A stretch of DNA of 64,000 bases, taken from assembly GCA_903813345.2 (NCBI GenBank), contig CAIIXF020000003.1:8023815-8087814 (forward strand), written 5' to 3'. This document shows, piece by piece, positions 1,429 to 61,424 of the stretch (position 1 is the first letter of the stretch; the number at the start of each line of letters is the position of its first letter). The position numbers were made by a program, and so were the translations under genes. This DNA comes from Owenia fusiformis (taxonomy: Eukaryota > Annelida > Polychaeta > Sabellida > Oweniidae). The notes beneath the pieces are model-generated. The model was not told the origin of the DNA. It saw only the letters and a list, made by a program, of their open reading frames with translations, and made no database searches.

Positions 1429-4400
1429 TATTCCACATATGGTCAAAGTTCCTGTTGGCATCTGTTCCAATGCAGTCTTCGTCCCACGTTGGAGACATAG
1501 TCTTTCGCCACATTCTGTCCTATTTAATATAAAGTAAATCCTTAGTACTCTCCCTTCAAAAAGTTTGGCAATGGGATCTTCTCTTTTGCACCACATGTTT
1601 AAAGCCCGTTTATGTTCAACGATGTTAACAAATTCATCACTAATTTTTGAACAAAATTAAGATTACGAGAACTTTTCAACTCTGCAAATAGATAAAACCT
1701 TGACCTTAATACGCTTTAACAGACTATCCGGTTGGTTGCCACACTTTTGGAGGGGGTGTATATTTATTTGATGGCTTGTATTCTCATTATTTTGGAATTA
1801 TTAAAACTAGGAACAAAGAATCATGTATCATTCTAAATCCAATCAGGCCATGGACTTACCACGTTCCATGTATTGAGGTATCCATCAACATTGATCAATG
1901 GCATTATGTACCAGTCATAGTTGTCCAGGAGTGGGGTAACACTAGCGTCGGTGCCATATCCCGTGAGCAGCTGAAAAATAGTACGAGGGTGAGACAAAAA
2001 CTTTGACCCTAGTCATTACCCGTTGACCATTGCTGATATGGGATCAGTGAGTATGTGACTTGTCTGGAAAAAACATAGCATCTTGTCTAAAATTTCTCAT
2101 CCAATGGTCAAAAATTGCATATGGAGACTTTCACATTTGGCCAGTATGTTGTGGAATCCATAAAATTTAGTACTTGGAGACTAGTGGGCTTTATGAATAT
2201 CATACTTGTGGTGGTTTCTTCATTTGTCTATATAGATCTGTTCTAACAATGTTTATTTTGCAGTATTATCTACAATGATTTGTATGTGGCATATTCTGTG
2301 AACATTGAATTTAATGGGAATAAATTGAAAAATTAAAAAAGATACATTATTTTATGATCACACCTCGTATATTAAAAATTAGCTCACTTGCTCTATGACG
2401 TACATGACCGTAGCTGGGGAGATCCATTCTCTCGCATGTATTCCACCATCTAACCAGATTTTTCTACGTCCATCACCAGTGCTTAGCTGTAAGCATACAA
2501 TTACACCATTAATATCACATAGTTAGTAAAATATTTATTAAAGTCTCACACTGTAGTTAACAATATACATGTATATACTAAAATACTACATTAATAGTAC
2601 AATAACGCCATTTTGAACGGCTGAAACAGCAAGAAAATCTTACGCACTGAACGATATCTAATTTCCCGGGGAAATTTGCCAGTCGTTAAATGCATTGACC
2701 GGCTATATTGACCACCACTATGACGACACATATTGCTCAGGTCGATATAGTAAAATGAATGCCTTCTAAACTAGCACTAAACCCCTAGAACTAGCCCGGC
2801 AAGGTGGTAATAATTAATAGTCCAAGCCGGCTTCGGCGTATGAGAACACCTTTATTTGAACACAAATATAGTGAACACATTTCTCACTGTGAACATATAT
2901 TTACCATCCCTCTTATTAATATTTATATAGCATAGTCAACACGTTTTATAAACATATGTACGCTGAACACCTTTTTTTGTAAACACATATACAGTAAACG
3001 TCTTATTTGTTAATATATTTTACAGAGTAAAACACATTAATTATGAACACTCGGAACACATGAACTGTAAATCTTTTTCTCGTTTATGTTTATTCTACAG
3101 TGGCACCCTCGTAAACACTTAAACAAAATGTCTTATTTGTTAATATATTTTATAGTAAAAAAACATTAATTATGAACACTTAGAACACATGAACTGTAAA
3201 TGTTTTTCTCGTTAATGTTTATTTTACATTGACACCCTCGTGAACACTTAAACAAAAATGTCTTATTTGTTAATTTATCTTATAGTAAAACACTTTAATT
3301 ATGAACACTTAGAACACATGAACTGTAAATGTTTTTCTCGTTTATGTTTATTCTACATTGACACCCTCGTGAACACTTAAACAAAAAAGTCTTATTTGTT
3401 AATATATTTTATAGTAAAACACATTAATTATGAACACTTGGAACACATGAACTGTGGATGTTTTTGCTCGTTTATGTTTATTCTACAGTGACCACCTCGT
3501 GAACACTTAAACAAAAATGTCTTATTTGTTAATATATAGTAAAACACATTAAATATGAACACTTGGAACACATGAACTGTAAATGTTTTTGCTCGTTTAT
3601 GTTTATTCTACAGTGACCACCTCGTGAACACTTAAACAAAAAAGTCTTATTTGTTAATATATTTTATAGTAAAACACATTAATTATGAACACTTGGAACA
3701 CATGAACTGTGAATGTATTTCTCGTTTATGTTTATTCTACATTGACCACCTCGTAAACACTTAAACAAAAATGTCTTATTAATTACACATTAATTATGGA
3801 TTCTTATACAGTAAACACCTTTTTCTATTTTATTGTAAACACAAGCATAGCAAACACTGAACACCCACGATTACAGTAAAAGCAGATTATTGATTTTCAA
3901 AAGCAATACTCTCTTATGCTACTAGTTACGAGAAACCAGAAATGCCATGCAGAGTACTCAGTATTGACCTAGCTAGTGTCTATTCTAAAATAGACTTTCA
4001 CTAAGGATTTAGAAGATTAATTTCACAACAGTAGTTTACACGCTGAGTTCCAGCATTCTATATTGCTAGGTGTCTTTTTTCAAGAGCTGCTCGTAAATAA
4101 AATAACCAAGTATTTTCGTAACTGGACATGGAGCAGAGAGAAGAAACACGAAGATAAAATGATTATGAATGAAATCTTGCTCATTTACACTGAGGAGAAT
4201 CAGGCTCGAAATGTACTTGTTTGAGTAACTAGATTGATAGACTTCTTTCAAGAGTCGTCAGTAAATAAATTGAGTTCAGGGAGTAAGTCCTCGATGTCAT
4301 TTAACTAACATGTAATATGAAATCTAATCTGAAGAGATGAACGAGGTATAAAATGAAAATCTAAAGTCAGAAAGAGTGCCATATTTCTGGTAAACAATAT

Positions 4401-7400
4401 TCGGGATATATATACACAGAAAAAGAACCGAGTATTTAATAATCAGGACAACAATATAAAAAGAAAGTGGACCATATTTCTTGGTTTATGATAATCCACA
4501 TAAAATCTATAACAGAAAGAGAACGCTTTCGTTTTCTACTTGGTATAAGTACAGTAGAACATTATACAAGATAGGACTTTGTTTTCTGGTATAATCAGTA
4601 GAACATCTATTCACAAATAGGCGACTATATTTTCTGATATATCATGTACAAGTGTCTGGAGGTTCAGGTTCCCACTGAGCCACTAAAACTAGTTGAGAAA
4701 CCCATCCCAGTTCCACCCTCCAAGGGTCTGGTGATAAAAGTAAGTAAATGAAATGTATTATGATTATTCTACTTTAAAAACAGTGCTTAAAATACATTCA
4801 TTTCAATGTTCCAATCCCTCTCTTTATGAGTTTATTTGATAGCTATGTATAGTCTAAAATATGAGCTTAAAGTCCCCGATAAATCGGGCTACGTATACCG
4901 CCGTGTTTACATTAGGGGATTAGAAGAGTTTATTTTTTATTTAGGTATGCAAGCTACGTATATCAATATCAGGCCTTCATTCATGTACTCGTGTGCATGT
5001 AATCAGCATGCCCTTCAATATTATGTAAACCAGGCTATTCAAGTATAATGTAAATGTACACTATTTATGTGTGTACTACATACAATACAATTCCCTGGGA
5101 AACAAAACACAAATACGTTTTATATGTTCAAAATGAGCCATTTGATTGATGCAAACACTTAATAGCTTTAGGTTATTGTTATTTATTTCTATAATATTCA
5201 ACATAATTATTTACATAGATTGTGAGGGGCCGAGGCTACATAGCATTATTGGCCCCCCTCTAGAAAGTTAAAAACATATAATAAATCACTGGAGTGTGTA
5301 GGATTGCAACGGACAGACGGTCGTCCACCAGGTCTTGCCCATGATGATGTATATGAGTGTTAATGAGAGATGATGTGAAATGAGGAGGATGGTCATTCTA
5401 AGATGTTATCGATATAATTTGAAGATAGTTGAAGGCATTTTGTATTCAGTTCACTATTTAAATTTTCATCTCCAAAAAGTATAAATTCTATTTTTTGCTT
5501 TCTGGTTTTTCCAAAATAGCACATAATATCAAGATTGTCTAACTTTAGGATGTTCTGTATGTAATCATTTCTATGTAATGTTTCTTAATAGCTTCATAAA
5601 TAACATCTACAAAGTAAACTTCCCTGGTTAAGATTGTATGGGAAATCATCACGAGACGAAGATCGTTCGCCTTCCTGGCTTACCTCTGAATCGTGTACCG
5701 GGCAATCTCTTTATATAGTTTAGCGAGAGCGGTGCGCCTGCGCAGTTTTAAACTTTGGCGCACACTTTAACAAATATAACGAATAACTATACTCCTAAAC
5801 TTTTCTACCCTTGCTCACGATATAAACATTTGTGTGTAGATTTTACACCTGGTCTGAGGTTAATGTCAATATGAAGTATTTGTATAGCATAACAGTTAAA
5901 TAAAAAACTACAAGAGCGCTTTGATAAGGCTTGTTAAGGTGACTTGGACTATCTCATAAAAATTAAAATTAAACCATAGCGTAACACAGCATAATTAGAG
6001 TTGATCAGACTTTAATTCTAAAATAAAGGCCATGCTTAAAGTAATGCCTGAATCAGTTTGTTTAGTAAAATGCCAGAATTATTTGCTGATATAGTATCTT
6101 GAAATCGACATTCAATTTCATTGATATATGTTTATTTACGTTATATTAGCCAACTAGATTCATCAAAGGGTATACTGTTCAAATTAATATTTTGACAGAT
6201 AAATCATACATAGACAGGCTTAGCATAATTTTAACCATTACTTTAAATAGCTAATTTAAAAGCGTTTCATAACAATATTGTATATCATTTATGTATTGAA
6301 AATATGACTGTAGTGCTTTGTATTAATTACATTATACATTACATTACATTATCGTGATATACTAATTTAATAATGAAACGTCGCTTGTTTCGTTCGGCAC
6401 TCATGCTGAAGACCCGGATAATAAATCAATCTCTGGTATGAACAAATATACAAAAACTTACTCACTTCGAGAGCCATGTTAGATTTTGAAACTTATGGCT
6501 CTCAAACGGAGAAGTGAACAGCTGATCAATAGTGACCTTTGAAATTGAATTAAGTCGATCCGCGGCTTACTTTTGGTCTCTAACTGTGTCTTACATCAGT
6601 ATCATCAATCCGTGTAAGTATTGGAGCGCTGGAGTACTTCTTTTTCGATCAAGACTTGTAAATTGTTCATCGAGTTAAAGTTTTACAGACCTATTTCCAA
6701 TATGGCGGTTTGCTAGGTGCGAGATACGCAACGAACGAAATGAATTTTGAGAATTAGTTAGGTTCGGACAACCTCCGGAGATTTACGAAAATGTCCGAGC
6801 AGAAACCGCCATATTGGAATTTGGCAGTAAAACGATTCACTCGACCTAACAATTACAAGTCTTGATCGAAAAAGAAGTACTCCAGCGCTCCAATACCTAC
6901 ACGGATTGATGATACTGATGTAAGACACAGTTAGAGACCAAAAGTAAGCCGCGGATCTACTTAATTCGATTTCAAAGGTCACGATCACTGAGCTGTCCAA
7001 ATGCTCCGTGGGAAAGCTATTATATCAAAATCCAAATAGCTTTCGCAGGAAGTAAACAAAAACAATTTGATTTGATGATCAAACCATTCATTTTCAGACT
7101 GAGTCCTGTGGAATGTGCCATACAGACATTGCTATAGCAGACAACTACATGAAGCTTGCTGATGGTTTTGAAGACAATACGCTAACTCAATATGACCCAG
7201 ATTTCAAATACCCTGTAGTAATGGGTAAGGGGATGGTGTTCGAACGATGAAAATTGTGGAAGAACGAGGTTGATTTTGAAATGATCTTCCTCCCCTTGTA
7301 AAACGAAATTTAAAAGTATCGATTCATCGTTAATTTGAATATTAACATTTTTCAATAACTAATCTTCATTGAATATAAACTGTGCTTTTCATCCATCTAA

Positions 7401-10400
7401 TAACTATATTTGCTATTTATTTATACATAAACCATAAAAATACTATTTGACCAATATTGACCATAATCTATTTCAGGACATGAGGTTGCAGGAACAGTTT
7501 ACAGTATCGGTGATGGAGACTGCCTAGGTAACAATGATAGAAGGAATTATAATTTGAAGTAAAAGAGAAAGTAAAATGTTAGCAGCAATCTTTGGCGAAA
7601 ATCATGCCAATGTTTGTCTACAGTTTTTTGGGAAAAATGCCTGATGAAATCTTGAAGATTGGAGATCTAGAAATTTCCAAATTGATGAGAACAAAGGGGA
7701 GTCCTCCTTTTGAAAACTTGAAAAGCTTTATTTTGCTTGTAACGTCTTATTTAGGAAGTGAGGAACTGGAAGTTGGTGACCGTGTTGCAGTGTATACATT
7801 CCAAGGTTGTCAGAACTGTAAGCTATGCAACACAGGAAACCACTTGATGTGTGACAGGAGACAGTGTAATGATCTAGGCCAGGGTGGTGATGGAGGGTAT
7901 GTAATGTACTGTAGAATATACAGGGTGTCCCGAAAGTATGGGGCCTCCCTAGGCAGGCATACACCAATGTTAAATTCAATATCCTGGAAACAGCGCTTAC
8001 CTCAATGTGACCAAAAATGTGGATGCTATCGTCAGAGAGAGGATGGATATTGAGTTGAAAAAAGAGGTTAGTGAGGGTAGATACTCCAAGGAAATTCTTC
8101 TTAAAGTGTCTCACATATTCGATCAAAATTTGCCATGCAAACATGTTAGTCTACTTTACTGGCCCCCCTTGCTGTAACAAGGAACCCAAAACACATTCAA
8201 ACGTAAACATAAACCAATTAGTCACTTCACTATGAAAGTGAGGGGTGTACGCTGTGTGCATGGACTAACACAATATCAGTGGCCATTTACTGTGTCAACT
8301 TAGTAACCCTTGCATATCGTGCTCACTCAAGTATTGAATAATTTTTTTATGATCTAAATGTTTGTGGTTTATAAAAAAATGTGATATATTTTAGTTAGAA
8401 ATACATTAATTAATATATTCATTCAAACAGCACTAGAATGCGGGAAGAGAGAGCAATGGTGACAAAATGCAGACAGACTTTTCCGTAAGGGTTTCAAACA
8501 TTTCTGAACACAATCATACATGTACTTCATGTGTACTGTTATTTTTAGTGCTGTATTTATAGATATAATTTCACGTATTAAAATCATATTTTCCCGCAAT
8601 GACTTCAAATTCGGAACCACACCCATATCACATTTTCTTCAATAACTCCAAACATGTGTAAACATTGACCATGTGCATATAAATTCAGATTTCATGAGCT
8701 CTTTCCTATTCGAGTACCTCATACACCCCTGCATGGATTTGAGTTGGATTCACCTTTTATACGTGAGCCGACACACTCTCAAACGCTGATTGGATAAAGA
8801 TTGCGAGAATCTTTAAATGCCTTAAAAAGGTTTTATGAGCATTACAAAATGCCATACCCCTATTTGAAGTGTATTTAAGGTCATGTCTGGAAAGAATTGC
8901 TGCTGTTAACATGGCCAAGGGAGACACGGCGACTATTAATTTTGTGTAAAACCAAGCTTTAATTTAAAAACTACATTTTGAAATGCCTTTTTGAACTTTT
9001 TCCCGTTATTGGGTTGAACCATGATACTTGGCAAATTAATGTAACTTTGGATCAGCTTTAAAATGATATATGACACATACTATGGGGACATTGGTGTATG
9101 CCTGCCTAGGGGGAACACTTTCGGGACACCTTGTAGAGTGTGGCAACCTGACTCAGCCTGTTAAAACCTTCTAATGTTTCAAATATTATTGTAAAGTTAA
9201 AGTTGGTAGTACAGACTGCAGACTGTTCTAGAATAGCCGAAACAAGCAGGGTATCTGAGGTTGAATTTGTGAAAACCTACTAGATTTTATCTGAACGAAA
9301 TTATGTTATTCCACTTTCAGATATGCAGAATATGTTAGTATTCCAAACAGGAAGTTTGTTTTCAAGCTACCAGATTCTATCACCATGGATACAGCATGTT
9401 TATTTTCGTGCAGTGCATTAACAGCCTACAATGCCGTCACCAAGACTAAGCCTGCAATTGAGAATGCACTCAACATATTTGGTAAATGTAATAGTAAAAT
9501 AGATGTGGTGTGATATCATACTTTGCTTTGTTAAACTTAACGATAAAAGTACTTCTACCTGTACTTAACGCTGAGAAATTGTACAGCTGTTGTTTGAAAA
9601 AATTATACATATAAAAATCAAAAATGCAAACTCTAAAAACCATGTCATAAATAAAATCAATAATTAAAACCTGTACTCAATACATATTTTGAAAAAGATA
9701 TCATTTCGGTTTTGCTACGCTGTTGATCATAGAAACAGGAGGTTTAGGTCAATTGGTACCACGAATTGCAACAGATGCACCAACCAAAGAGACAAAATAA
9801 TGGTTTTCATATAATATTAAGCCTATTCACTTTGCCCTGCAACTTTTCCAGGTTCTGCTACGCTGTTGATTATAGGAGCAGGAGGTTTAGGTCAATGGGC
9901 AATTCAGATTGCTAGAGCTGTGCTTCCCACGGAGACCAAAATATTAGTAGCAGATATTTCAGTAAGAATCACAATGGTTTAAATAACCTTTATAAGACCT
10001 CAATTTCTATGCTCTTCAAATTAAAGATAATTCTTTGATAACGCCTTTTTTTCACTTGATGTTTGAAATAAATAAATGAAATGAAAAAATTATCACTTGA
10101 AACAATTATAAATACCTATAGTAATTGTCAACGTTGATTGTGTTAAAGTCGTGTAATCAAAAGTTCATAAATATGGGGAATAATGCTATCAATATCAGAC
10201 ATGATTGCTGTATGAAGCACCTATTCAAAATGTTCCGTATCAGATGGTCACATTATTGTTTGTTCCAGTATCAATTGTGATATACTAGAGATATATTGAA
10301 ATTAACTTATTGCCATTCATAGTTTGCGATATACGCATTCAGCTATTTTCGACATTTTCCTCTGTGAGAATTATTTTCGGGTTTCATTGTAATACAGGCT

Positions 10401-13400
10401 GATAGGCTGGCAGCTGTACAAGAGAGTGTGGATATGACAGTGGAATGGTCTACAGATGGTAAATATAACCTAGATTCATCATATACCATTGGATAGATAA
10501 CTGATATGTCACTCAAAACACTTTAAGTGGCTTTTGAAAATCTCCACCCTTTAACTCTACCAAGAAATATTTAGCGCAACAATTTCTTGACAAATAAATG
10601 TCAGGGGCTTAACCAGCAATTGTCAAGGGGGTGCGATTTTTGGGTAAGCACCACTGTGAGCGAAGCGAATCCCAAAAGAGGGATACGGGCGTTCACCCCA
10701 ATAAAACTTTTTTTTATATTGTATATGGTGCATTCTAGGCATTTCAAACTATGATTTGTTAATGTTCTTTCAACAAATTTTACAAAATTGCTTTTTTCTT
10801 TTTTTGTGAAGAGGGGGATGCGATTGCACCCATTGCACCAATTTCATTTAATTTTGTTAAAAGTGGCGCGGCAAATATTGGTTCAAATCCTAAGTCAAAA
10901 TTGGCATTTTAAACTAGATCTCCTTAATAAGCTAATCGAGAGGAAAGGGATTGGTCATGTTTTCTTTCTATTTTTGGCAGATGACATGTCCTTCATGACT
11001 AAGGTGAAAGAAGTGACAGGTAGTGAATTTGTAGAGGCCTCCATAGACTTTGTTGGGAATCCTGTTAGCATGAAACGTGCAATGTGGCTTGGAAATAAGG
11101 TACTTTGTCTACGTCATATTAACATATGGGTAGCAAGGATCTAAAACTAAGTGATGGGGACATCTTAAATTGGCTAAAGAATTTAGAAAACGTCGGAATT
11201 TTCCTCCTCTGCTTCATGCCTGCTTATGTTTACCATAAACTCCACATTTATGATGGAGATTTATCAGAAAGCAAAATACCTTGCCACTTATCGGGCCAGA
11301 TATGACTCTGGTGGAAAAAGCTTCTCACTGAGATGAATGAGGATGAAATTAATCAGGGCTCGAACAAAGGTCTGTTTTGACCATTAATTGTTGAAGCTTA
11401 ATAGTTTCGTAACTGATTGAGTGTTTCAACAACTATTTGGTTGAAAATATTTTCAATGAAATGTAATGGGTACCAAGAATTCTTACAACGGACACTTTTC
11501 AGGGTTCCACGCATTGTATAGTTGGATTACTCGGCGGTGCTACTACCTTCCCAGTGCCATTTATCCCATGTAAGGTGATGGATATCCATGGGATATATCT
11601 CGGATCCACCCAGCAAATGCAGGAAGTCATAAAACTTGCAGCAACGGGCAAGGTGAATTTGAAATACGATTTCGCTCACTTTTCATATTTTAGAAATTAA
11701 CCCTCTACTTTAATATAATCCATTTGATATACATGTTTTTAGGAAAACACTTAAGAATTCAAGTCCTCCATTTAGACTTGAACAAGGACGGATCTATAAA
11801 AAGGCTATTTCATTTATCTCCGAGAGAACTTCCTTCTCTAATACATTCCTTCTGTATTTCTTGCGTTCCTAATGTATAACTAGAATTTCCACATTATTAC
11901 TTGCATTTCCTCTTTCTCGCACTCTTTCTGCATTACTTGCATTAAACTGTTTTATATAACTTACGATTGTCCGTATTTCCATTTTAGATAGTGGCTCCAC
12001 CTATGGAATACTGCAGACTTGAGGAAGTGAACGATGTTTTGAACCGACTCAGAAAAGGAAAAATTAACGGACGTGCCATCATCAAGTTTGACTAGAAAAA
12101 CATCACTGTTTTAGAACAAACAGGGTCTAATCAAGGCATTCTATATACAGGGTGCTTCATAATGACCATCGCCCATCAATCACCAATCCTAGGTGGAATA
12201 TCTCCATGTGTAATATATCATTTGAAAGCTTGACCAATTCTGGACTTATTGACATATTAACTTTAGATTAAGCTCAGCAGCTTTAACAACTTGCTGCACA
12301 CCACTACAAAAGGTGTCCATTTGATCTATAGCATACAATTGAACAGCCACATGTTCTAGGAAATTGGCTGTGTGTCCTGTTAAAAACAATGATAACTAAG
12401 GCTCAGAACAGTATTAATCAACAGTAATGCACCAATTATAGCATTTGATGGATGCTGGAAAGTATTAATTGTAGAAAAAGTCTAATCATGGAATGATTAT
12501 AGGTACTTTAACCTGAATTTTGTGAATATCTTGACCTTGTTCCCAAGAACAGTGAATTGTTCCCACCTACTGTACCTTGAACACTTGCAGTGGTCTATCC
12601 TCGTATATCGAGCCTATGTTTAACAAAGAACACGTTACACTACTTGGACATCTGCTAACTGAGCCGAGGAGCAGTGAATTATTCCCACCTACCTTGAACA
12701 CATGCAGTGGTCTACCCTCGTATGTCGAGCCTATGTTTACCAAAGAACACGTTACACTACTTGGACATCTGCTAATTGAGCCGAGGAGCAGTGAAGTATT
12801 CCCACCTACCTTGAACACATGCAGTGGTCTACCCTCGTATGTCGAGCCTATGTTTACCAAAGAACACGTTACACTACTTGGACATCTACAAATTGAGCTG
12901 AAGAGCAGTGAATTATTCCCACCTACCTTGAACACTTGCAGTGGTCTACCCTCGTATGTCGAGCCTATGTTTAACAAAGAACACGTTACACCACTGGGGC
13001 ATCTGCCAATTGAGCTGTTCAGCCAGGCATAGATCTGCAAATATAAATGAATCTATATATGGTATTATAACTCATATACGGTATCGTTATATAGTATATA
13101 GTATCATCATGTTGTCCATAAATTGACCTCGGTGTAAGGCTTGCGTACCATAACCTTGTCTGCACAAAGAATTAGGTCTTGAATATATCATGAACTTGTA
13201 GTAATAAAAGGGTAAATGACCAATGGATTCTAGATCACTATTCAAAATGTAACAATGTCTTAAGACTCGTCTCCTGTTACTCAAATCAACATAGAAGTTA
13301 TGTTTTCTTCATTCTCTAAAATTTTAACATGACATTCAATTGTAAAATCCGGCTCGTTGCTTGCTTTTCCCATCCATATTTACTTACACACTGTTTGTAA

Positions 13401-16400
13401 AGGGTGTTTTTGATAGAGCAGAGGGACAGAGTCCTACATACAGTATAGTTGTTCTTTTTTTATTTATTATTTATTTCATTGATATAGTTTAAAATACAAT
13501 TACAATAACATCCCTAAATCGCCAGAGGGCATTATATAGGAATGGTGAGAGGCTGGGGGTGGCAGGCAGACAGGGTCCCGGACCAGAGCAAGTGTGACAG
13601 AACAGGATATCAGAGAGAGAGACATGAGGGAGGGAATTAGCTATTGTCTATAATGAAGTCAAGTATCAGTGAAATGGCTTTAGAGTTTACATCTATGCTT
13701 AAAGTGTGCGCCAAAGTTTAAAACTGCGCAGGCGCACCGCTCTCGCTAAACTATATAATTATAAAGAGATTACCAGGTACACGATTCAGAGGTAAGCCAG
13801 GAAGGCGAACGATCTTCGTCTCGTGATGATTTCCCATATAATCGTAACCAGGGAAGTTTCACCATTGAAATTGAAAATTACTATTAGATATACTTTGTAG
13901 ATGTTATTTATGAAGCTATTTAGTGTTTGCATCAATCAAATGGCTCATTTTGAACATATAAAAAGTATTTGTGTTTTGTTTCCCAGGGAATTGTATTTTA
14001 TGTAGTACACACATAAATAGTGTACATTATACAGTACTTGAATAGCCTGGTTTACATAATATTGAAGGGCATGCTGATTACATGCACACGAGTACATGAA
14101 TGAAGGCCTAATATTGATATACGTAGCTTGCATACCTAAATAAAAAATAAACTCTTCTAATCCCCTTATGTAAACACGGCGGTATACGTAGCCCGATTTA
14201 TCGGGGACTTTAAGTTTGGGCTTCCTGTTTTCAAAATGGAGATAAAATATAGTTGTAAGAGCACTAGCTACCCCTTAACGGTACTTTCACGAATGATGAC
14301 AAATATATCTTTCCAATAAACCCTGCCACCTTTCGATATATCAGTGAAACTTTGATATAGGTTGTATTTTTTTGAATTTAACAATGAGTTAATCTTGTTT
14401 TTGCACGGTCTGATTTCTTCCTACGATCATGGGCTACCACCTTTTGGTAAATCAGAGAAATTTTGATATATTGGCTAGCTTGATGATGTCATAGGTTGTA
14501 TTTTTTAAAATTGGCAATAAGTTAATCCTGTTTTTGCATGGCCAAACATCTACAATGTCCTTACAACCGATAATATCATCAATTTAGAATACATCATAGT
14601 TTTTATGTCACCACCAAAAAGTGATAACATATTGTTATGGTCTCCGTCTTTTTGACGGCGGTTGGCGATCGGCGGTTGGAGTGTGTAACAAATGGTGGTG
14701 ACATTTCACATTCGCATTCATACCTCATCAGGTGTCCTATAATCCGTGAAGAATTGCTGTCCCTGTTGCGTTGACGTTTTCCTTTTAGCTTCCCTGCTGT
14801 CAATCACGCTGAATATGCAATATAAATGCATGATTTAAAGAAGAATGTAACAAACAAATGCTGTCGATTATTTTGAAATGCAAAATTTAACTGAATTTTC
14901 ACACAGGCTGTCAATCACAATGAAATATACGATACGTTAATAAGATAAAATTTTCAGTACTGTCACACTAGAATAAATTAAATATATACAGGGTGTCAAA
15001 TAAGTCCCGTCCCCCCTCTACAGCCAAAACCAAGATATATGGTACCAAGTGTGATATATCATTGGAAAGGTCTTCCAAAGTTACGTTGATTAGCATATAT
15101 CTGACAAATGTCAATCAATCTCACAAAGTTTTACAGTGTATCAATTGAGGTGACCATAGGCCTAGAAACATGGCAATTTGGCGTATTTGGCAGGGTTTTT
15201 AGAATCGGGAATAAGAAAAGTCAAAGGACCTAAAGATGACTACATATGTATATGGCAATGAATTTAACCAATTTCTGGATAGGGGAAGATGTGTAGAAAA
15301 TAGAGGAGCAAGGTAAGTGGTGAAAACATTTTTGTAAGAAGGGGAATGCGAAAAATATTATATTTCCGTGGTCAAATCCTTCTCATTTTGAAGCAAAAAA
15401 CTGCTTAAAGGAGAGTATGCTAACTATAAAAGACATCATGAAAATATAGGTGAAGTTCATCCAAAATATTTGAGAGTTTAATAGTGAGTTAACATAACTT
15501 TGTATGATCTTTCCAATGGTATATCACACTAGGTGCCATCTATTAAGGTTCTAGCTGTAGCAGGGGGACGGGACTTATTTGACACCCTGTACATAATTAT
15601 GTTTACAATAAATATATACAAACAGTATAGTAACAATTGCATTGTAGTAAGTTTGTTCTGTTCTGTTGTTCATTTCCTGACTGAAATATATTTTCCTTCG
15701 CAATTAGTTCCCGTTGGTCTCGTAACACTGGTCAATATTAAGTGAAGGAAACGGCCGTAACATTCGCATCTAAGATGGCGGACGGTATTTTGATATCTTC
15801 AGTTTCCATTGAAGAGTTGACGTTATGCTTTGATATTTGAATATACAGGGTGGTCCAAAAAAAATTGGAACATTTGTTAATTGAATGCAAAACCTTTATT
15901 TTTCTTCTAAAATGCACAAAACTTTTACTGAGCATAGTTCAGTCACTTATTTATCTGATGTAAAGTTTATAGGTGAAAACCACAAAGTTAATGCATTAAA
16001 CTAGTCAATGTTTGATATGACCCCTCTTCTCCTGACTTACAAGTTGAAGCCTGTGGCTCAGATTTGTAAATATTCAATTAGTTTGCTGTTCGTTTGTTTT
16101 GTCCAAGCCATCTTAATTAAAAATTTCAGCTTGATCAAACTTCCTATTTGTTTGCCTTGGAAGATCAAATCTAGTAGCATATTCAAAAATTTTTACCCAA
16201 ATTCATGGGATCAAGCATATTTTAATGGCTATTGTTGGGTGTATTACTGATTGAATATTCTCCAGAAAGAGGCCAGGGCAGTCTGATTTGACTGGTAAAT
16301 GAAGCCCCTTCCCCTTTATTGTTCTGATATGAATAATATTCATTGGGAATATCAATATGTCTATCAATATCATGGAGGAGTCTCCCGTATTTGTGCTTAG

Positions 16401-19245
16401 CATTGGTTTTTAATAAAACTTTGTGAATAACTGGTCAGTTTTGCCTTTACTGAAAAGTGGGAACAATTCTTCTGTCACTTGAGCAGCTGTGAGGGTTATG
16501 CAATCGCTCACCTCTGACATGTTCCTTCTTCCCTACTCTTAAATGAAAATGATCATTTTGGGTATTGTTTAAGTTAACACAATATTTTTCTGGCAAACCC
16601 CAGATGTAAATACCCTTTGTCAACTGAATATGATTTTATAAAATATTTATACCAATTAACATGTGCATTAAAGCTTTGAAATAAATAATACTTGAAAAAG
16701 TAGCCGCGGAATTGACAAGTGTATATTTAAGAAAAGGGGGTCCTATCAAAGATTGACTAGTTTAATGCGTTAACTTTGTGGTTTTCACCTATAAACTTTA
16801 CATCAGATAAATAAGTGATTGAACCATGCTCAGTAAAAGTTTGGTACATTTTAGAAGAAAAATAAAGCTTTTGCGTTCAATTAACAAATGTTCCAATTTT
16901 TTTTGGACCACCCTGTATGATCATACACTCCCCTCCGTAAGTTTGGCAACCTTTTTCCCCCATTGAACTACGTGTTAAAGCCTCTTTACCTTTGAATTTT
17001 TATTTACTTAACCTGCGATGAAAATACTTATACTATTGATGGAAACATAATTTGACTTTAATTCCAATACCTCCAAATTTTCTTAATTTTTTTCCTCAAT
17101 TACAATAGGTCGAAAATTGATGATAAATTTGATGAATTTTTGAAAATCGACATTCCCATGTTAACCAATGGGAAATGGTAGGTTTGCCGCAAGTCATATG
17201 ACAGAATATCCATCCATCCGAGTCCTTGCAAAAAATACGAGTTAGGCAGGCAATTGAATTTGCTAACTTTATTTAACAAAAAATTGATATGTTTCTTCAG
17301 ATTCAACAAAGTTATAGGGCTTTAAAGTCAAAATTGTTTTTCAAAAAACCTCTCCCATTGAAATAACACAGGAGGCGAAAAATTATTTTCAAAAATGACT
17401 TTGAAGCGCTGTAACTTTAATATTCATCAAATAAACTAAACACTTAGTGTTCAAAGAAGTTAGACAATTCAATTTTCTATATAAAAATATTTTTTGCTGA
17501 ATCTTTTACTGAAAAGATATCCTGATTTTTGATTTGCCCCGAACCCTCCATTTCCCATTGGATTACATGAGAATGACGATTTTCAAAAATTCATCAAATT
17601 TATCATCAATTTTCGACCTATTGTAATTGAGGGAAAAAATTGAGAAAATTTGGAGGTATTGGAAATAAAGTCAAGTTACGTTTCCATTAATATTATAAGT
17701 TATTTCATCGCCGGTTAAGTAAATGAAAATTCAAACGTAAAGAGGCTTTAACACATAGTTCAATGGGGAAAAAAGGTTGCCAAACTTATGGAGGGGAGTG
17801 TATATGATCATTTCTTCATATACTGTGCGTGGGCGCCACAGTTCGACGATATCTGTCACTGTTTAACAGTTAATTTCCATTAAGCGGTGGAATATCTCGA
17901 TGAACTGCGGCGCCCAAACATGGTATATGAGGAAATGGTCATACTCCAGAGTTTCCGCGACATATAAGCCTGATCTAGATCACATATCCTGATCAAAGCA
18001 TTACGTCAACTATAAAGCATATAATTCGATAAAAACATTTTCGGCAATCTTCGTGATATAAACATTTTCGGCAATCTTCGTGATGTAAACATTTTCGGCC
18101 ATCTCGGATGAAGTGCACAGGTGCTCTCCATTGGTAGTAAGATCGAGCATGCGCAAATGAACTCATGAATGGATTTACCTCTGGATATCTTTGGATACCA
18201 CATCATATTTTATTCCACTTTCAATGAATCGAGTCAGAACGTATTTTAAACCACGTGGGGCGATTAGGATGAGGACGTCATTGTGAAGCTTTGATGGCTC
18301 GGTCCAGAAATCTACCTTAAAGTAAAAATCAACAAGATTAACTTTTAGAGGCATTTTTTGTCGTTTTATTAATCATATTTCAAATACCAGAGCGGTAATT
18401 AACCTACAATCCAACTGCTTTTTACCGTTTTAGTATCTTGAAGTGAGTTTAAACCAATTTTTAACGCAATTTTGAGTAACTCCCGCTAGTCTGTGTGCGT
18501 TTTTTGAGGAAGGCCCCGGGTCAATATTTTAATGTCCGTCAAAAACCTAATTTGTTACGATAGGGGGAGGGGTACAACCCTATTCAATTAGGTGACGGAC
18601 ATTGATTTTTAGTTTCCCTAGGTTCCACCTTAACACAGATACCCCCAGTCTGTGTGCATTTTTGAGTAACTTACCCCCAGTCCGTGTGCATTTTTAAGTA
18701 ACTTACCCCCACTACATATGCATTTTGAGTAACTTACCCCCAGACTGTGTGCATTATTTCCGAGTAACTTTTGAGTAATTTACACCTAATCTCAATGAAA
18801 ATCTGTGTAAATTGTTGAATAATTTACCGCTAGTTTGGTGTGTATGATTGAGAAACTTACCCCCAGTCTACGTGCACCGTTGTGTATATGGCGAAGAACG
18901 TTATGTTGGTCAGCTGTCTCGGATGTGACCTTTAACAAATTGTATCTGCAAGACAAACATCTCCATATAATGAAAGGATGAACACTATTTTGAAAGTGAT
19001 ATCCACTGTGACAGTTCGAAAGTCCATACATCCAGACATGGAAATTTGGTCAATGGGAAACCATACGATGCTTTAACCGTAAACGAGGACTCGGTTGTCT
19101 TTTGAAACCCAGTCCATACGCCATTCATTTCCACATAAAAGGTAAAAAACTGTTCCAATAATCATACATACCCGTCATATCGTGTTCTCTTAGCCGCACA
19201 GCAACACGTCACCAACAAAACAAGAAGAGCAAACCGGCCCACCAT
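1429..19245 (-). CDS. Procarboxypeptidase A-like zinc metallopeptidase (M14A), exons 1-8, gene runs off left edge
   Basis: Exons on the minus strand: 19172-19245, 18861-18945, 18179-18315, 14724-14808, 12927-13034 (alternative ends 12810, 12693, 12576), 2388-2486, 1860-1970 and 1429-1519. All are bounded by AG/GT and phases agree, giving 263 codons plus one base. Exon 1 encodes a signal peptide (MVGRFALLVLLVTCCCAA). Exons 2-3 encode the activation domain, ending in the typical VDFWTEPS segment and the following fold. Exon 4 carries a basic activation region (SREAKRK) then FFTDYRTPDE. Exon 5 has NIGSTYEGRPL. Exon 6 has GIHAREW, the first two zinc ligands (His180, Glu183). Exon 7 has NVDGY. Exon 8 has RMWRKT (Arg127 equivalent) and DANRNF (Asn144/Arg145 equivalents). 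The third zinc ligand and catalytic Glu must lie left of base 1. It is expected to be a secreted zymogen that removes C-terminal residues. The reconstruction is my own reading, supported by unbroken phase over eight exons. Confidence 0.93.
1735..1762. mobile_element. Lone terminus of the GGAGGGGAGTG MITE family
   Basis: GTTGCCACACTTTTGGAGG and the following GGGTGTATA match the right end of the element at 16926-17800. No partner end was found nearby, so this is a solitary or truncated fragment. Confidence 0.4.
2840..3800. repeat. 129-bp minisatellite in carboxypeptidase intron 5
   Basis: TCTTATTTGTTAATATATTT recurs at 3001, 3131, 3261, 3390, 3520, 3645 and 3774, giving a period of 125-130 bp and six full units rich in GAACAC. 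The first 150 bp holds looser GAACAC motifs from which the array may have grown. No coding potential is seen. Confidence 0.85.
4644..12095 (+). CDS. Zinc-dependent alcohol dehydrogenase (MDR family), complete, ten exons
   Basis: Exons: 4644-4739, 7098-7224, 7477-7527, 7755-7896, 9321-9481, 9852-9961, 10398-10458, 10981-11099, 11503-11652, 11988-12095. They total 1125 nt, 374 residues plus TAG, with GT-AG borders and matching phases throughout. Catalytic zinc ligands are Cys39 (CGMCHTD), His76 in the signature GHEVAGTV, and Cys169 (LFSCSALTAY). The structural zinc lobe is complete: Cys110, Cys113, Cys116, Cys124. The Rossmann motif is GAGGLG (201-206), with Asp227 at the end of the second strand, favouring NAD over NADP. 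Length is normal for the family, and all key residues are present, so it should be an active cytosolic oxidoreductase; the natural substrate cannot be told. The gene lies inside intron 5 of the carboxypeptidase on the opposite strand. No AATAAA or ATTAAA is seen in the 450 bp after the stop. Confidence 0.95.
4851..5770 (+). repeat. Repeat family copy in alcohol dehydrogenase intron 1
   Basis: The segments 4851-5160 and about 5635-5770 recur inverted at 13697-14215, including a CGGTGCGCCTGCGCAG stretch. The short open frame at 4836-5048 is repeat sequence, not an exon. The two copies carry different central stretches (here 5165-5630, there 13440-13690). Confidence 0.6.
6519..6998. mobile_element. 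Palindromic foldback MITE in alcohol dehydrogenase intron 1
   Basis: Two arms of about 175 bp, ACAGCT...GTGACCTTTGAAATTGAA at the left and its complement at the right, surround a centre of about 100 bp. Arms are about 95 per cent complementary by eye. The open frame 6758-7000 on the minus strand is one arm and not a gene. Confidence 0.8.
7920..9133. mobile_element. TA-flanked inverted-repeat transposon in alcohol dehydrogenase intron 4
   Basis: Ends CAGGGTGTCCCGAAAGT and ACTTTCGGGACACCTTG with about 50-bp terminal inverted repeats, flanked by TA on both sides. This is the pattern of Tc1/mariner-type elements. About 1.2 kb, no transposase recognised. The open frames crossing its left end (7592-8053 plus, 7728-8144 minus) are not genes; they overlap the real exon 4. 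Confidence 0.75.
9708..9800 (+). pseudogene. Dead tandem copy of alcohol dehydrogenase exon 6
   Basis: This stretch, about 60-140 bp upstream of the real exon 6, repeats its sequence (TGCTACGCTGTTGAT... GGAGGTTTAGGTCAA). The acceptor AG has become CG, the Rossmann motif reads ETGGLG rather than GAGGLG, and a one-base loss gives a stop (ACA AAA TAA). It cannot replace exon 6 and is read as a decayed duplicate. Confidence 0.75.
12146..12270 (+). mobile_element. Single end of a CAGGGTG-type element after alcohol dehydrogenase
   Basis: TATA then CAGGGTGCTTCATAATGACC begins here like other TA-flanked elements of this window, but I found no matching right end. The rest of 12096-12575 shows no other feature. 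Confidence 0.3.
12576..13034 (-). CDS. Carboxypeptidase exon 5 with four tandem in-frame splice donors
   Basis: The true acceptor (TTTGCAG before ATCTATGCC) is at 13035-13036. The shortest exon is 12927-13034 (36 codons). Beyond its donor the sequence repeats with a 117-bp period. Each unit restates the exon end (SSVTCSLVNIGSTYEGRPL then VFK) and ends AAG followed by GTAGGTGGG. Donors begin at plus positions 12926, 12809, 12692 and 12575. Because 117 is a multiple of three and no stop interrupts the units, each donor yields an in-frame exon of 36, 75, 114 or 153 codons. Past the last donor, which has a 5-bp insertion (GTACAGTAG), the frame meets a stop, so that one must be spliced. Intervals between the similar cores are only 41 bp, too short for normal introns, so internal splicing is unlikely. 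Which donor is used cannot be seen from DNA. Confidence 0.8.
13440..14215 (-). repeat. Inverted partner of the 4851-5770 repeat, in carboxypeptidase intron 4
   Basis: Reverse-complement similarity to the alcohol dehydrogenase intron repeat covers the CGCAGGCGCACCG segment and the 280 bp before 14215. The centre (13440-13690) differs and has a T/A-rich start like a retroelement tail. Confidence 0.55.
14604..14707 (+). mobile_element. Short copy of the GTCACCACC repeat beside carboxypeptidase exon 4
   Basis: It starts TTTTATGTCACCACCAAAAA and ends GGTGGTGACATTT, with the GACGGCGGTTGGCG core between. It is an internally deleted version of the 20035-22260 element and ends 16 bp from exon 4's donor. 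Confidence 0.65.
14989..15589. mobile_element. TA-flanked MITE, about 600 bp, in carboxypeptidase intron 3
   Basis: Ends CAGGGTGTCAAATAAGTCCC and its complement, long terminal inverted repeats of about 120 bp, TA duplicated at 14987-14988 and 15590-15591. No coding sequence. Confidence 0.85.
15846..16915. mobile_element. TA-flanked inverted-repeat element, about 1.07 kb, intron 3
   Basis: Ends CAGGGTGGTCCAAAAAAAAT and complement; inverted repeats of about 170 bp; TA on both sides. The short frames inside are not recognised as transposase. It is mariner-like by termini only. Confidence 0.85.
16926..17800. mobile_element. TA-flanked MITE with long arms, intron 3
   Basis: Ends CACTCCCCTCC(G/A)TAAGTTTGGCAACC and complement, arms of about 250 bp, TA flanks at 16924-16925 and 17801-17802. 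It begins only 10 bp after the preceding element ends. Confidence 0.85.
17806..17941. repeat. Small imperfect palindrome, intron 3
   Basis: About 49-bp arms (GATCATTTCTTCATATACTG... and complement) around a 35-bp loop containing TGTTTAACAGTTAA. Probably a tiny foldback element. Next to it, 18030-18105 has three short repeats of ACATTTTCGGC(A/C)ATCT. Confidence 0.6.
18641..18860 (-). repeat. Splice-donor minisatellite after carboxypeptidase exon 2
   Basis: On the minus strand, copies of the exon 2 end plus donor (GACTGGGGGTAAGTTACTC-like) recur with about 32-bp spacing. Donor GT positions are near plus 18736-37, 18705-06, 18673-74 and 18641-42. The authentic donor is at 18859-60, and degenerate copies lie near 18775, 18826 and 18481. 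Reading on from exon 2 reaches a stop at 18792, so use of the downstream donors would not give a normal protein. Confidence 0.75.
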
Positions 19246-24072: not shown

Positions 24073-24891
24073 TTATTTTGCAGCGTTTTCTAATGTTTTC
24101 TTACTAAGACCCATTAAGACCATACCGCCATCACATACCACACAGGCCCCGTTCATCATGGATGCATCTTCAGAAGCTAGAAATGCTATCAGTTTTGCCG
24201 CGTCATCCACATTTCCAATTTTACCCAGTGGGGTACATTTTGCTGCCGTTAAATACAATTCTTCCTCTTCCGATTGCGATACCCCCTGATTCTTTAAAAT
24301 TCTCGTTCCTTTAAAATACCCTGGACAAACGGCATTAACACGGACAGATTGATTACCAAATTCCAATGCAGCACATTGTGTGAACATATTCAATCCGGCT
24401 TTAGTGATGCAAGAAAATGGACAACCATCTGATGCGAGTACGCCGGCGCAGCTGGACGTATTCACAATGTTTCCCTTGCTTTGTTTCAGTTCAGGCAAGC
24501 ACATTTGCGACAAAAGAATTGGCGCTCGCAACATGACTTTAACAGCGTCATCGAACAATCCAATAGATCCCGAGCCAAGATTGGGGTTCTTATCAAAATA
24601 TCCTGCATTATTTACTAGAATATCTATCTTGCCGAATGTTTCAACGGCTGTGTCACGAATCTTCTTCAGTACATCATCATCTCCGATGTCTCCTTGGATA
24701 TACGGAAACTTAGCATTTTCGACAGCCACCTTTTCACATTCAGCCACAGTTTCTTTGATAGTACTAAGACTGCGCCCATGTATTAGAACACTTGCGCCCT
24801 CTTTGGCCAGTAGCAATGCAGTCCCTTTTCCAATTCCACTATTCGACCCTGTCACAATAGCAGCCTTTCCTGAAAATCTCATGGTACTCAT
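24073..24891 (-). CDS. SDR1: intronless short-chain dehydrogenase/reductase with Tyr-to-Ser at the active site
   Basis: 272 codons from the first in-frame ATG at 24891; the frame is open for 19 more codons upstream but without ATG. Classical SDR: cofactor motif TGSNSGIG (14-21), HGR after the second strand, favouring NADP, NNAG (94-97), catalytic Ser147 (NTSS), then S160-C-I-T-K164 where the family has Y-x-x-x-K. The position usually held by the Asn of the catalytic tetrad reads VML, so it is Met. A CPGYFKG loop and GGMVLMG C-terminal end complete the fold. Loss of the Tyr would normally abolish oxidoreduction; the frame is otherwise intact. A possible acceptor (TTATTTTAG) lies about 70 bp upstream, suggesting a 5' UTR intron. 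Nearest in style to FabG-like animal SDRs; substrate unknown. Confidence 0.88.
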   Translation of the reverse strand: MSTMRFSGKAAIVTGSNSGIGKGTALLLAKEGASVLIHGRSLSTIKETVAECEKVAVENAKFPYIQGDIGDDDVLKKIRDTAVETFGKIDILVNNAGYFDKNPNLGSGSIGLFDDAVKVMLRAPILLSQMCLPELKQSKGNIVNTSSCAGVLASDGCPFSCITKAGLNMFTQCAALEFGNQSVRVNAVCPGYFKGTRILKNQGVSQSEEEELYLTAAKCTPLGKIGNVDDAAKLIAFLASEDASMMNGACVVCDGGMVLMGLSKKTLENAAK

Positions 24892-24948
24892 TCTCTGTGG
24901 CTCTGCATGTATGTATTTGCAATTCCAAATGCTGAATATATTCACCAA

Positions 24949-26918
24949 CTGTCTAAAATAATGTTACGTATTATTTTAGATAGTACTAAATCAAATCTAG
25001 TTCAATTTGACCCAACTTAAGTGTATACATAAAAAACATGTTTCAATTATCTAATCTTGTAATCTAATAGTGTAAAACTAGTCATATCTATGCCGAATAT
25101 TTGGTACAGATCTGTAATTGGACCACTACTTATATGGGGCATTTTGAGAATCAATCGTGTCATTCGGAGTTCAATGTTTTCTTAACTTGTCAGCATGCAT
25201 ATAGGATTGGGAACTCAAAACCACCGCTGTACAGAGCATTTCTTATACCCCGCCCCTGATAAAATCTACAGGGGATACTGTAAGACACCTTTATATCTCA
25301 GACACAAATAAAGGCATTGACTTGAATTTTTCAGTAAGTTGTTTTACTGTGATGTTTGATTTGTATGGCAAGAATCGAGAAAAAAATCTTAATCCATTGC
25401 TATAGCAACAGTAATAGAGCACTATGTGTATATACCTTAAAAGTGCATTATTTTGTGGGGTGACATTATTTTATTTATAATGACTGAAGACATTCACTCT
25501 GAAACTGCTCTAATGGATTTGACATTTACATTAAAATTATTATCAAACTTTAGACAATGATAATCATAAATATGCTTAATTAACGCCTCGGGTCTTACGA
25601 TATGTGTAAAACTTCAAATGTTACGTTTTTCAACCCCTTGTGAAGAGAGACATATTTGACCAAAAAGCCCGAAATTGTTTCAGCAAACGGTAATTGAAAG
25701 AATCAAGACACATGCACCTCTTTAAATATTGGTTCAAATGTTGCTGCTCTATATTTTAATCAGATTCTTCATATCCCAGAGTCAAACCATGGACTAGTCT
25801 GTGCAAGCACACTTCTCTGTGGTCCTAAACGTGGTCAGGTATACTAAGTTTAAACTAATATGGAACTGGACTAAAGAAATATTTGACATAAAAAGCATAT
25901 ATTAAAGGTGCAACAATTAGTGCAGGGGGCCATTCAACGATCATCGACCAGTGTCAAAATATATTTAAGTTTGGATATTTCATCAAGACTAACATATATT
26001 TTTATCATCTACAAAGAAACCACCTGGATGAACATTATTTTAGTTGATATTCCTCTTGAAACGTGGTGAATCTTAAAAATCTATAAGTTGGACTCCCTTT
26101 ATAGAAGCTTTGTACTGAGTTTACACTTCTTAATGCTGAAATTGAGAGTTTATCCATACATTTTAAGAAAATTGGTATGTCAAAGAAGATGTTAAGCCAA
26201 ATGTTGACCTGATAGCTCAGAAAAAATCAAAAAATCGAATTTTCTCTCTACAGTCCTTGTCGCACCTTTAGAGTCAATCATATTTAGTGGAACATTTTAC
26301 AATCAGTTTAGTCTAAAATATTGCTGCAAACTAAGGTCAAATATTATAGATAATTTTTAAGTCATCACCTGTTCACTTCTTACTACAGGGTGTCCAATAT
26401 TTATACCGAGATAAAACATATGAACTCGTTACCTGATGAAAGAACATTCTTTAAATTCAGCCATCATTCAGACAAGTTAATTAACATAACCATATGAAAA
26501 ATTGAACGTGTAACTTTTTGCTTTTTGAGTAGACTTTGTTTTGGTACCATAACCCATATTTCATTGTCGCACAAGGCAACTTGAAAACAGCAACTCCACA
26601 GAGTAGCAAATCACACTGAACAAAACATGTTTTGATGAATAGCAGCCATCTTGAACAGGTATCAGTATGTAACAGTACAAAATTTGAACACATCCGTTCA
26701 GTGGTATTTGAGTTATCAAAGAGCATGTTTTTACGAAAAATGGTGATTATTTTGAAATTCAGCTGTCATCTAGAACTATTTTTCTTGTGCAGATAGCTAC
26801 TTTGTCCATAGGCACCAGTATTGAACCAAATCCGTCAACTGGTACATGTTTTTGGGTTATCAAAGATTACAATTTTAACGACAAATGGCGTCAATTTTGA
26901 TAATACTGTAGTGGCTGT
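24949..26918. other. Upstream spacer of SDR1 (spacer A)
   Basis: No gene is seen. The same spacer lies upstream of SDR2 and, when its insertions are removed, upstream of SDR3. It holds the 368-bp element at 25903-26270 and a CAGGGTGTCC terminus near 26386. A partial second copy follows at 29742-30420 after the inserted cassette. Confidence 0.7.
25903..26270. mobile_element. 368-bp element with TAAAGGTGC(A/G)ACAA ends
   Basis: Ends TAAAGGTGCAACAA and TTGTCGCACCTTTA. Copies: 35746-36113, 40186-44724 (split by a 4.1-kb insertion) and a diverged inverted piece at 52440-52690. The spacer near 57703-57715 lacks it and looks like an empty site. Confidence 0.65.
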
Positions 26919-33914: not shown

Positions 33915-34733
33915 TTATTTTGCAGCGTTTTCTAATGTTTTCTTACTAAGGCCCATTAAGACCATACCGCCATCACATACCACACAGGCCCCGTTCATCA
34001 TGGATGCATCTTCAGAAGCTAGAAATGCTATCAGTTTTGCCGCGTCATCCACATTTCCAATTTTACCCAGTGGGGTACATTTTGCTGCCGTTAAATACAA
34101 TTCTTCCTCTTCCGATTGCGATACCCCCTGATTCTTTAAAATTCTCGTTCCTTTAAAATACCCTGGACAAACGGCATTAACACGGACAAATTGATTACCA
34201 AATTCCAATGCAGCACATTGTGTGAACATATTCAATCCGGCTTTAGTGATGCAAGAAAATGGACAACCATCTGATGCGAGTACGCCGGCGCAGCTGGACG
34301 TATTCACAATGTTTCCCTTGGATTGTTTCAGTTCAGGTAAGCACATTTGCGACAGAAGAATTGGCGCTCGCAACATGACTTTAACAGCGTCATCGAACAA
34401 TCCAATAGATCCCGAGCCAAGATTGGGGTTCTTATCAAAATATCCTGCATTATTTACTAGAATATCTATCTTGCCGAATGTTTCAACGGCTGTGTCACGA
34501 ATCTTCTTCAGTACATCATCATCTCCGATGTCCCCTTGGATATACGGAAACTTAGCATTTTCGACAGCCACCTTTTCACATTCAGCCACAGTTTCTTTGA
34601 TAGTACCTAGATTGCGCCCATGTATTAGAACACTTGCGCCCTCTTTGGCCAGTAGCAATGCAGTCCCTTTTCCAATTCCACTATTCGACCCTGTCACAAT
34701 AGCAGCCTTTCCTGAAAATCTCATGGTACTCAT
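33915..34733 (-). CDS. SDR2: near-identical duplicate of SDR1, also with Ser for the catalytic Tyr
   Basis: 272 codons from ATG at 34733. It differs from SDR1 at only a few residues seen by eye (GRNLGT for GRSLST, NQFVRV for NQSVRV). TGSNSGIG, NNAG, NTSS and Lys164 are retained and Ser160 again replaces Tyr. The upstream and downstream flanks match SDR1 for kilobases, so this is a segmental copy, not a retrocopy. Confidence 0.88.
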   Translation of the reverse strand: MSTMRFSGKAAIVTGSNSGIGKGTALLLAKEGASVLIHGRNLGTIKETVAECEKVAVENAKFPYIQGDIGDDDVLKKIRDTAVETFGKIDILVNNAGYFDKNPNLGSGSIGLFDDAVKVMLRAPILLSQMCLPELKQSKGNIVNTSSCAGVLASDGCPFSCITKAGLNMFTQCAALEFGNQFVRVNAVCPGYFKGTRILKNQGVSQSEEEELYLTAAKCTPLGKIGNVDDAAKLIAFLASEDASMMNGACVVCDGGMVLMGLSKKTLENAAK

Positions 34734-47535: not shown

Positions 47536-47744
47536 TCTCTGTGGCTCTGCATGTATGTACTTGCAATTCCAAATGCTGAATATATTCACCAACTGTCTAA
47601 AATAATGTTACGTATTATTTTTAGATAGTACAAAATCAAGTCTAGATCAGTTTGACCCAACTGTAGTGTTTACATAGAAAAAACATGTTTCAATTATCTA
47701 ATCTTATAGTGTGTAACTAGTCTTATATCTGTGCCGAAAATTTA

Positions 47745-61389: not shown

Positions 61390-61424
61390 TCCATGCTGTC
61401 TCATTGAAGTTAAGGCTACAGTAA

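Follow-up and report, generated by a model that had tools for sequence, protein, structure and literature searches.

In the annelid Owenia fusiformis, a stretch of 64,000 nucleotides (hereafter the window; contig CAIIXF020000003.1, positions 8,023,815 to 8,087,814 of the forward strand) harbors on its minus strand a carboxypeptidase gene of the M14 family, in which the donor edge of exon 5 is copied in tandem by an array of 117-bp units. The initial annotation had proposed that this array may add up to three copies of a 39-residue module to the enzyme. We read it as what is probably a neutral minisatellite at a splice edge, of the type called mirage in amphioxus, with the normal 418-residue enzyme as the main product of the gene. 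The array is probably a tolerated repeat rather than a built-in lengthening device, since similar accidents are found at other splice edges in the genome. The functional argument is not upheld, because an array that keeps an open frame is expected about once in four and several sister arrays exist.

Tandem Repeats Finder (TRF) placed the array at window positions 12573-13015, with a period of 117 bp, 3.8 copies and 94% matches, and as a repeat it is more than chance. When the array DNA was searched against the 498-Mb assembly (525 contigs, one haplotype), the sole match was the array itself. Exon 5 proper (12927..13034, minus strand, 108 bp, phase 0/0, IYAWLNSSIGRCPSGVTCSLLNIGSTYEGRPLQVFK) ends at donor 1 (AAG|GTAGGT), and approximately its last 88 bp lie within the repeat, which extends up to 13015 according to TRF. 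Unit 1 is this end of the true exon 5. Each of the following three units, all on the minus strand and 117 bp long, consists of 29 bp from the start of intron 5 and 88 bp from the end of exon 5. Unit 2 (12810..12926) and unit 3 (12693..12809) end in donors 2 and 3, both AAG|GTAGGT, and unit 4 (12576..12692) ends in donor 4, AAG|GTACAG, and carries T-to-I and G-to-D replacements at the GSTYEG motif. An apparent 5-bp insertion, GTACA (12571..12575, minus strand), has changed donor 4 and shifted the old GTAGGT out of place.

The GTs of the four donors begin at 12926, 12809, 12692 and 12575, directly behind the last exon bases 12927, 12810, 12693 and 12576, and exon 6 follows with its first base at 2486. 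All four donors are in phase 0, and the minus-strand reading from 13034 stays open through the four units until a stop directly past the last donor (GTA CAG TAG), both as initially annotated. The array of four units is likewise real, with the first of them partial, whereas the claim that every unit ends in the same donor fails at the fourth. Units 2 and 3 differ at 2 of the 88 exon-part sites, compared to 5-7 of 88 for the other pairs; over the whole 117 bp, the differences amount to 5 between units 2 and 3, 6 between units 3 and 4, and 9 between units 2 and 4. Units 2 and 3 are identical across their last 78 bp, which hold the conserved core RCPSSVTCSLVNIGSTYEGRPLHVFK. Units 1-3 gave weak M14 profile matches, and none was listed for unit 4.

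The donors were scored with a matrix of 87 donors, comprising 70 carboxypeptidase donors (9 from the host gene and the rest from its paralogues) and 17 of 19 globin donors; the paralogue and globin donors were picked for their resemblance to the consensus, so the percentiles are rough. Donors 1-3 are identical and share an equal score at the 84th percentile, compared to the 1st percentile for donor 4, which is apparently altered by the 5-bp insertion; one donor of the set scores as low as donor 4. The displaced GTAGGT, 5 bases downstream of donor 4 and out of frame, reaches the 29th percentile, and splicing from it (last exon base 12571) would give a truncated reading of 282 residues.

In silico splicing of donors 1, 2, 3 and 4 to exons 6-11 yields open proteins of 418, 457, 496 and 535 residues, respectively. 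The proposed zero to three extra copies are therefore all readable, but the weakness of donor 4 makes zero to two the realistic range. Because donors 2 and 3 have the same sequence as donor 1, some use of them is plausible, and in-frame products longer by 39 and 78 residues are possible. The insert would sit directly after exon 5, with the His of GIHARE as the 17th residue past the junction. It would repeat a core strand pair of the enzyme fold, as suggested by the alignment with procarboxypeptidase A2 (1aye_A) and by structural inference, so that good folding of a longer product is doubtful.

How often an array of this kind would stay open by chance was estimated by enumerating duplications 60-160 bp long, with the start point among the first 100 bases of exon 5 and the end point 5-60 bp inside intron 5. 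Of the 4483 donor-spanning duplications so listed, 1481 keep the frame without a stop, a share this large because the start of the intron is itself open in the frame of the exon. Multiplied by the probability that ten random substitutions introduce no stop (~0.72), this gives a chance expectation of ~0.24; the prior for a period divisible by three is ~1/3. By this estimate the open frame of the array is no more than chance, about one in four. As a control, the antisense strand also holds a stop-free frame of 158 codons through the array (12556..13032, plus strand), and openness can follow from a period divisible by three alone. The initial argument that such a period and an open frame are hard to reconcile with neutral drift does not hold on either count. 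The window contains two other separate arrays of more than 150 bp with a period divisible by three. The first (747-933), a 66-bp minisatellite of 2.8 copies located within the intron that follows exon 8 and away from the traced exon edges, has one stop-free frame. The second (2996-3780), a 129-bp minisatellite of 6.1 copies that lies in intron 5 and ends ~500 bp before the exon 6 acceptor is reached, is interrupted by stops in every one of the six frames.

Codon comparison of units 2-4 revealed 10 variable sites, spread over 9 codons that all change the amino acid; by hand count, a single site in ten is synonymous. This is unremarkable, because the neutral synonymous share is ~0.28. In a simple binomial on the 10 sites, which ignores their shared history, the probability of at most one synonymous site is 0.19 under neutrality, 0.03 at a ratio of nonsynonymous to synonymous change (dN/dS) of 0.5, and 0.0005 at 0.2. 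Overall, this count of 10 differences gives no sign of purifying selection on units 2-4. The donors had also been cited as conserved; three of them are identical rather than four, and the identity in units 1-3 is uninformative at so low a divergence.

Similar arrays lie at other splice edges of the same gene and of its paralogues. The host gene has three: besides the exon 5 array, a donor-like array of exon 2 (18640-18770, minus strand) comprises 4.0 copies of 32-bp units reading ACTGGGG|GTAAGTTACTC, and an acceptor array of exon 10 (2347-2797 of L001, a stretch outside the window that carries exons 9-11 of the gene) comprises 13.7 copies of a 32-bp unit reading TTTCAG|ATGCGTGTTGGTAATGC. The exon 2 donor-like units (ACTGGGG|GTAAGT) lie inside intron 2, with the real donor ~90 bp off, and the exon 10 array adjoins the real exon 10 on its upstream side as a row of acceptors; donor and acceptor edges are thus both hit. 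Thirteen further M14 loci, several of them partial genes, were taken from 123 profile matches for having an exon 5-like or neighbouring match, and three of them carry splice-edge arrays. That of L013 is built on the exon 5 donor, the same donor as in the host gene (7.1 copies of 74 bp); L004 has one at its exon 7 acceptor (2.9 copies of 89 bp), and L009 has one at its exon 5 acceptor (9.3 copies of 50 bp, read by eye).

Among the six M14 array periods (32, 32, 50, 74, 89 and 117 bp), 117 alone is a multiple of three, and the sister arrays are mostly frame-breaking. The extra donors of L013 lie 75, 149, 223, 297, 377 and 451 bp out (spacing 74-80 bp); the first keeps an open frame, and stops precede each of the remaining five. 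The initial annotation had named frame-breaking units in orthologues as one of the observations that would refute its proposal, and L013, although a paralogue and not an orthologue, comes near to it with a single open, in-frame donor among its six extra ones.

We compared splice edges with random points in introns. The edge scan left out exon matches with E >0.3, any match other than the best one for each exon and locus, edges <40 bases from the end of a locus, and edges that lacked a suitable AG or GT close by; exon 5 of L009 was lost in this way. At the M14 loci, the script found a nearby copy at 5 of 154 splice edges (6 of 155 with L009 by eye), compared to 89 of 900 points drawn at random in introns (depletion at Fisher P 0.005, with points within a locus not independent). 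The globin scan took in 19 of 21 globin matches, omitting two weak ones, with the donor positions of L017 and L033 doubtful; a copy was found at 1 of 38 edges versus 51 of 1140 intron points. This single case, in L034, is a donor with one extra copy, which lies behind stops at a distance of 171 bp (divisible by three). The comparison is rough because the random points that have copies are concentrated in a handful of repeat-rich loci, with 51 of the 89 coming from L013 and L003. At the M14 and globin loci, setting copies at edges against those at intron points gave no sign that splice edges specially attract repeats. Minisatellites abound in the introns of the examined loci; several lie at some distance from exons, and some arrays include an exon edge by chance.

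We propose that a tandem duplication, with one breakpoint within exon 5 and the other 29 bp beyond the start of intron 5, copied the exon 5 donor and was later amplified, and that its period became divisible by three by chance. Donor 1, at the end of unit 1, would be mainly used to give the normal 418-residue procarboxypeptidase, and the extra units would be removed with intron 5. Donors 2 and 3 would then be tolerated decoys, perhaps contributing a minor in-frame longer mRNA.

Several points weigh against this proposal. The main use of donor 1 is what we infer from the intact 418-residue reading and from the published amphioxus arrays, and donors 2 and 3 are just as strong as it is, at the same percentile. 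One period divisible by three among six leaves room for selection on the exon 5 array, and the binomial passes over the common descent of the units. The difference counts are mixed on homogenisation of the inner units, with units 2 and 3 closest in the exon part but 5, 6 and 9 differences over the whole units. Reed and Maniatis (1986) reportedly placed identical donors with exon context in tandem before one acceptor. In classical experiments with duplicated donors, the intron-proximal site is reported to win often; in the exon 5 array, that site would be donor 3 or the displaced donor 4. Moreover, 66% of human intron-forming boundary repeats are reported to have a repeat-keeping transcript as well (PMC2812944), and the human UBC repeats are reported to be spliced stochastically (PMC10809524).

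Regulated or stochastic donor choice, in which donors 1-3 compete to give zero, one or two extra 39-residue modules and donor 4 is hardly used, is unlikely but is the best placed of the alternatives. The module would enter directly after GSTYEGRPLQVFK, 16 residues before the zinc-binding His. Three strong identical donors, open products of 418, 457 and 496 residues, the identical core shared by units 2 and 3, and resulting exons of an ordinary 108-342 bp are all consistent with such a choice, as are the repeat-keeping transcripts often reported for human boundary repeats (PMC2812944). However, the lack of any sign of purifying selection on units 2-4, the chance expectation for frame and openness, the mostly frame-breaking sister arrays and the doubtful fold of a product with a duplicated core strand pair argue against it, and normal splicing is reported for the published mirages (PMC3087553, PMC3902484). 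A specific form of partial donor use, in which donors 2 and 3 would give a ladder of 418, 457 and 496 residues, with a copy number that varies among individuals, seems to us rather improbable. If true, it would turn a splice-edge minisatellite into a length dial for an enzyme, and this in an animal distant from amphioxus.

It is much less probable that the AG|GT at the unit ends serves as acceptor and donor at once, as in UBC, so that the 117-nt units leave as mini-introns and the isoforms differ in length by whole units. An AGGT core does stand at all unit ends (AAG|GTAGGT in units 1-3, AAG|GTACAG in unit 4), human introns sized as a multiple of the surrounding repeat are reported in 8.4-fold excess, and stochastic splicing is reported for UBC (PMC10809524), but the sequence before the unit ends (for example CACTGCATGTGTTC) is by eye poor as a pyrimidine tract. 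Such dual-specific sites and donor choice are inseparable by sequence, because their proteins would be the same. An assembly artefact, by which an inflated or collapsed repeat number would hide a real gene with fewer or more units, is equally remote: repeat numbers are hard to assemble and the assembly gives a single haplotype, but the units differ from each other at 2-7 of 88 exon-part sites with every junction clean, neither the window nor L001-L014 contains an N, and the arrays elsewhere show that the process is real.

A 29-nt mini-intron between the units (GTAGGT...CAG) was also considered and rejected. It would be very short, the AG stands at the required place in unit 2 only (CGG in units 3 and 4), and a phase-0 donor joined there reads, by eye, CTC AAT TTG TAG, that is, a stop.

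The host gene has 11 traced exons, of which exons 1-8 lie in the window and exons 9-11 in L001. On the minus strand, exon 1 (19172..19245) encodes a signal-peptide-like start (MVGRFALLVLLVTCCCA), exon 2 (18861..18945) the activation-peptide region, exon 3 (18179..18315) a further part of the 418-residue reading, and exon 4 (14724..14808) the end of the propeptide region and the beginning of the enzyme domain. Downstream of the array, exon 6 (2388..2486) encodes GGIHAREW, whose His and Glu are zinc ligands in this family; exon 7 (1860..1970) continues the reading, and exon 8 (1429..1519) encodes DRMWRKT...DANRNF. Joined in silico through donor 1 of exon 5, the exons give an unbroken protein of 418 residues. 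Its residues 31-414 match procarboxypeptidase A2 with an E of 5e-74, covering both the propeptide and the catalytic domain. The motifs GIHAREW, RMWRKT, DANRNF, TVHS, ILYPSSG and YTVEL are all aligned with 1aye_A and cover the zinc and catalytic residues known in M14 enzymes (HxxE, R, NR, H, Y and E). The gene thus looks like an intact M14 procarboxypeptidase gene of the CPA/CPB type.

Exon 11 carries the motif ILYPSSGTSRDW, which puts an Arg at the specificity position in both the 418-residue enzyme and its closest paralogue L007, where the aligned 1aye_A has Ile. We take this position to be residue 255, which sets carboxypeptidase specificity, and presume that carboxypeptidase O also has Arg there; a preference for acidic C-terminal residues is possible. 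In addition, L007 contains two copies of exon 10 (3327-3416 and 4427-4516), 77% alike in protein and each with its own acceptor and its own T|GTAAGT donor, which look like mutually exclusive exons. A GC-AG reading of the intron after exon 10 was ruled out by the DNA, the donor being T|GTAGGT in the host gene and T|GTAAGT in L007. Inside intron 5, a 156-codon frame on the plus strand (7583-8053) has, by eye, an alcohol-dehydrogenase-like zinc loop (GCQNCKLCNTGNHLMC) and is perhaps an intronic gene fragment or retrocopy.

Elsewhere in the window, three near-identical frames of 296 codons lie on the minus strand (24073-24963, 33915-34805 and 46717-47607), with 880, 848 and 849 of 891 bases alike in the pairwise comparisons. 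Their dehydrogenase-like label follows from the motif TGSNSGIG. Shorter relatives occur at 59077-59493 (minus strand) and 60567-61424 (plus strand). A recent segmental duplication is likely, because the frames neighbouring the first two copies also recur ~9.8 kb apart.

Splice-edge minisatellites place several equal, identical splice sites in a row and thereby offer a natural test of how the spliceosome chooses. Should the pattern hold across this genome, it would supply replicate frame-keeping and frame-breaking cases for the rules of donor and acceptor proximity and for intron gain. The exon 5 array also carries a warning that an open repeat with a period divisible by three beside an exon should not on its own count as evidence for a coding module. 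Compared to the laboratory construct of Reed and Maniatis, the exon 5 array is a natural one. Zhuo et al. (2007, PNAS) are said to have described intron gain from tandem arrays; arrays are likewise raw material for introns or splice choices here, but no new intron is seen, and in the paralogues the end of exon 5 falls at roughly the same place in the profile. A study in C. elegans has reportedly tied intronic motifs and minisatellites to splicing decisions.

The closest known systems are the mirages of amphioxus, minisatellites at the splice edges of Adh3 and of the globins BflGb6 and BflGb9 (PMC3087553), to which PGBD5, with units of 60 and 108 bp, and TnC are added by a further report (PMC3902484). 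Judged by their DNA, the arrays described here have the anatomical features of mirages: repeats that extend across an exon-intron boundary and duplicate the splice site (in exon 5, units 2-4), hits at both donor and acceptor edges, and units of tens to ~160 bp. Reported unit lengths are 10-72 bp in Adh3 and 150-160 bp in the globins (PMC3087553); the 32-117 bp found here lie within this overall span, although 74, 89 and 117 bp fall between its two groups. Mirages are further marked by concerted evolution of the inner units, from which boundary units are exempt, and by a copy number that differs between haplotypes or cells. Regular splicing is suggested for the amphioxus arrays by reverse transcription-PCR (PMC3087553, PMC3902484). 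The present case differs in that the host is an annelid rather than a cephalochordate, that one gene carries three arrays, and that the exon 5 array has a period divisible by three and is open throughout. An amphioxus origin, which the mirages might suggest, was not supported by profile searches: no match to the GFP family, which amphioxus has, turned up (a weak negative, as the control genomes likewise had none), and the annelid family Eryth_link_C matched above its cut-off (best E 5e-7), 7-53 kb from globin matches on the same contig. Among the open-licence matches listed, we found no report of a mirage by that name outside amphioxus, although human examples are known under another name.

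In earthworm metallothionein genes, annelid genes likewise reported to hold large intronic minisatellites, the repeats lie in the first intron and, in the accessible part of that report, are not said to copy splice sites (PMC12783039). The human internal tandem repeats that lie at exon-intron boundaries within segmental duplications likewise have units that carry an exon edge; where coding, they are reported to be mostly in frame. They can give alternative transcripts and novel introns and have transcript support (PMC2812944), whereas the present array is described from DNA. The human UBC array also consists of tandem units, each with an AGGT usable as a splice site, but its repeats are coding ubiquitin monomers with stochastic splicing reported as shown, whereas the units here mix intron and exon (PMC10809524). 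By analogy, the human boundary repeats and the dual-specific sites of UBC are relatives of the exon 5 array in mechanism.
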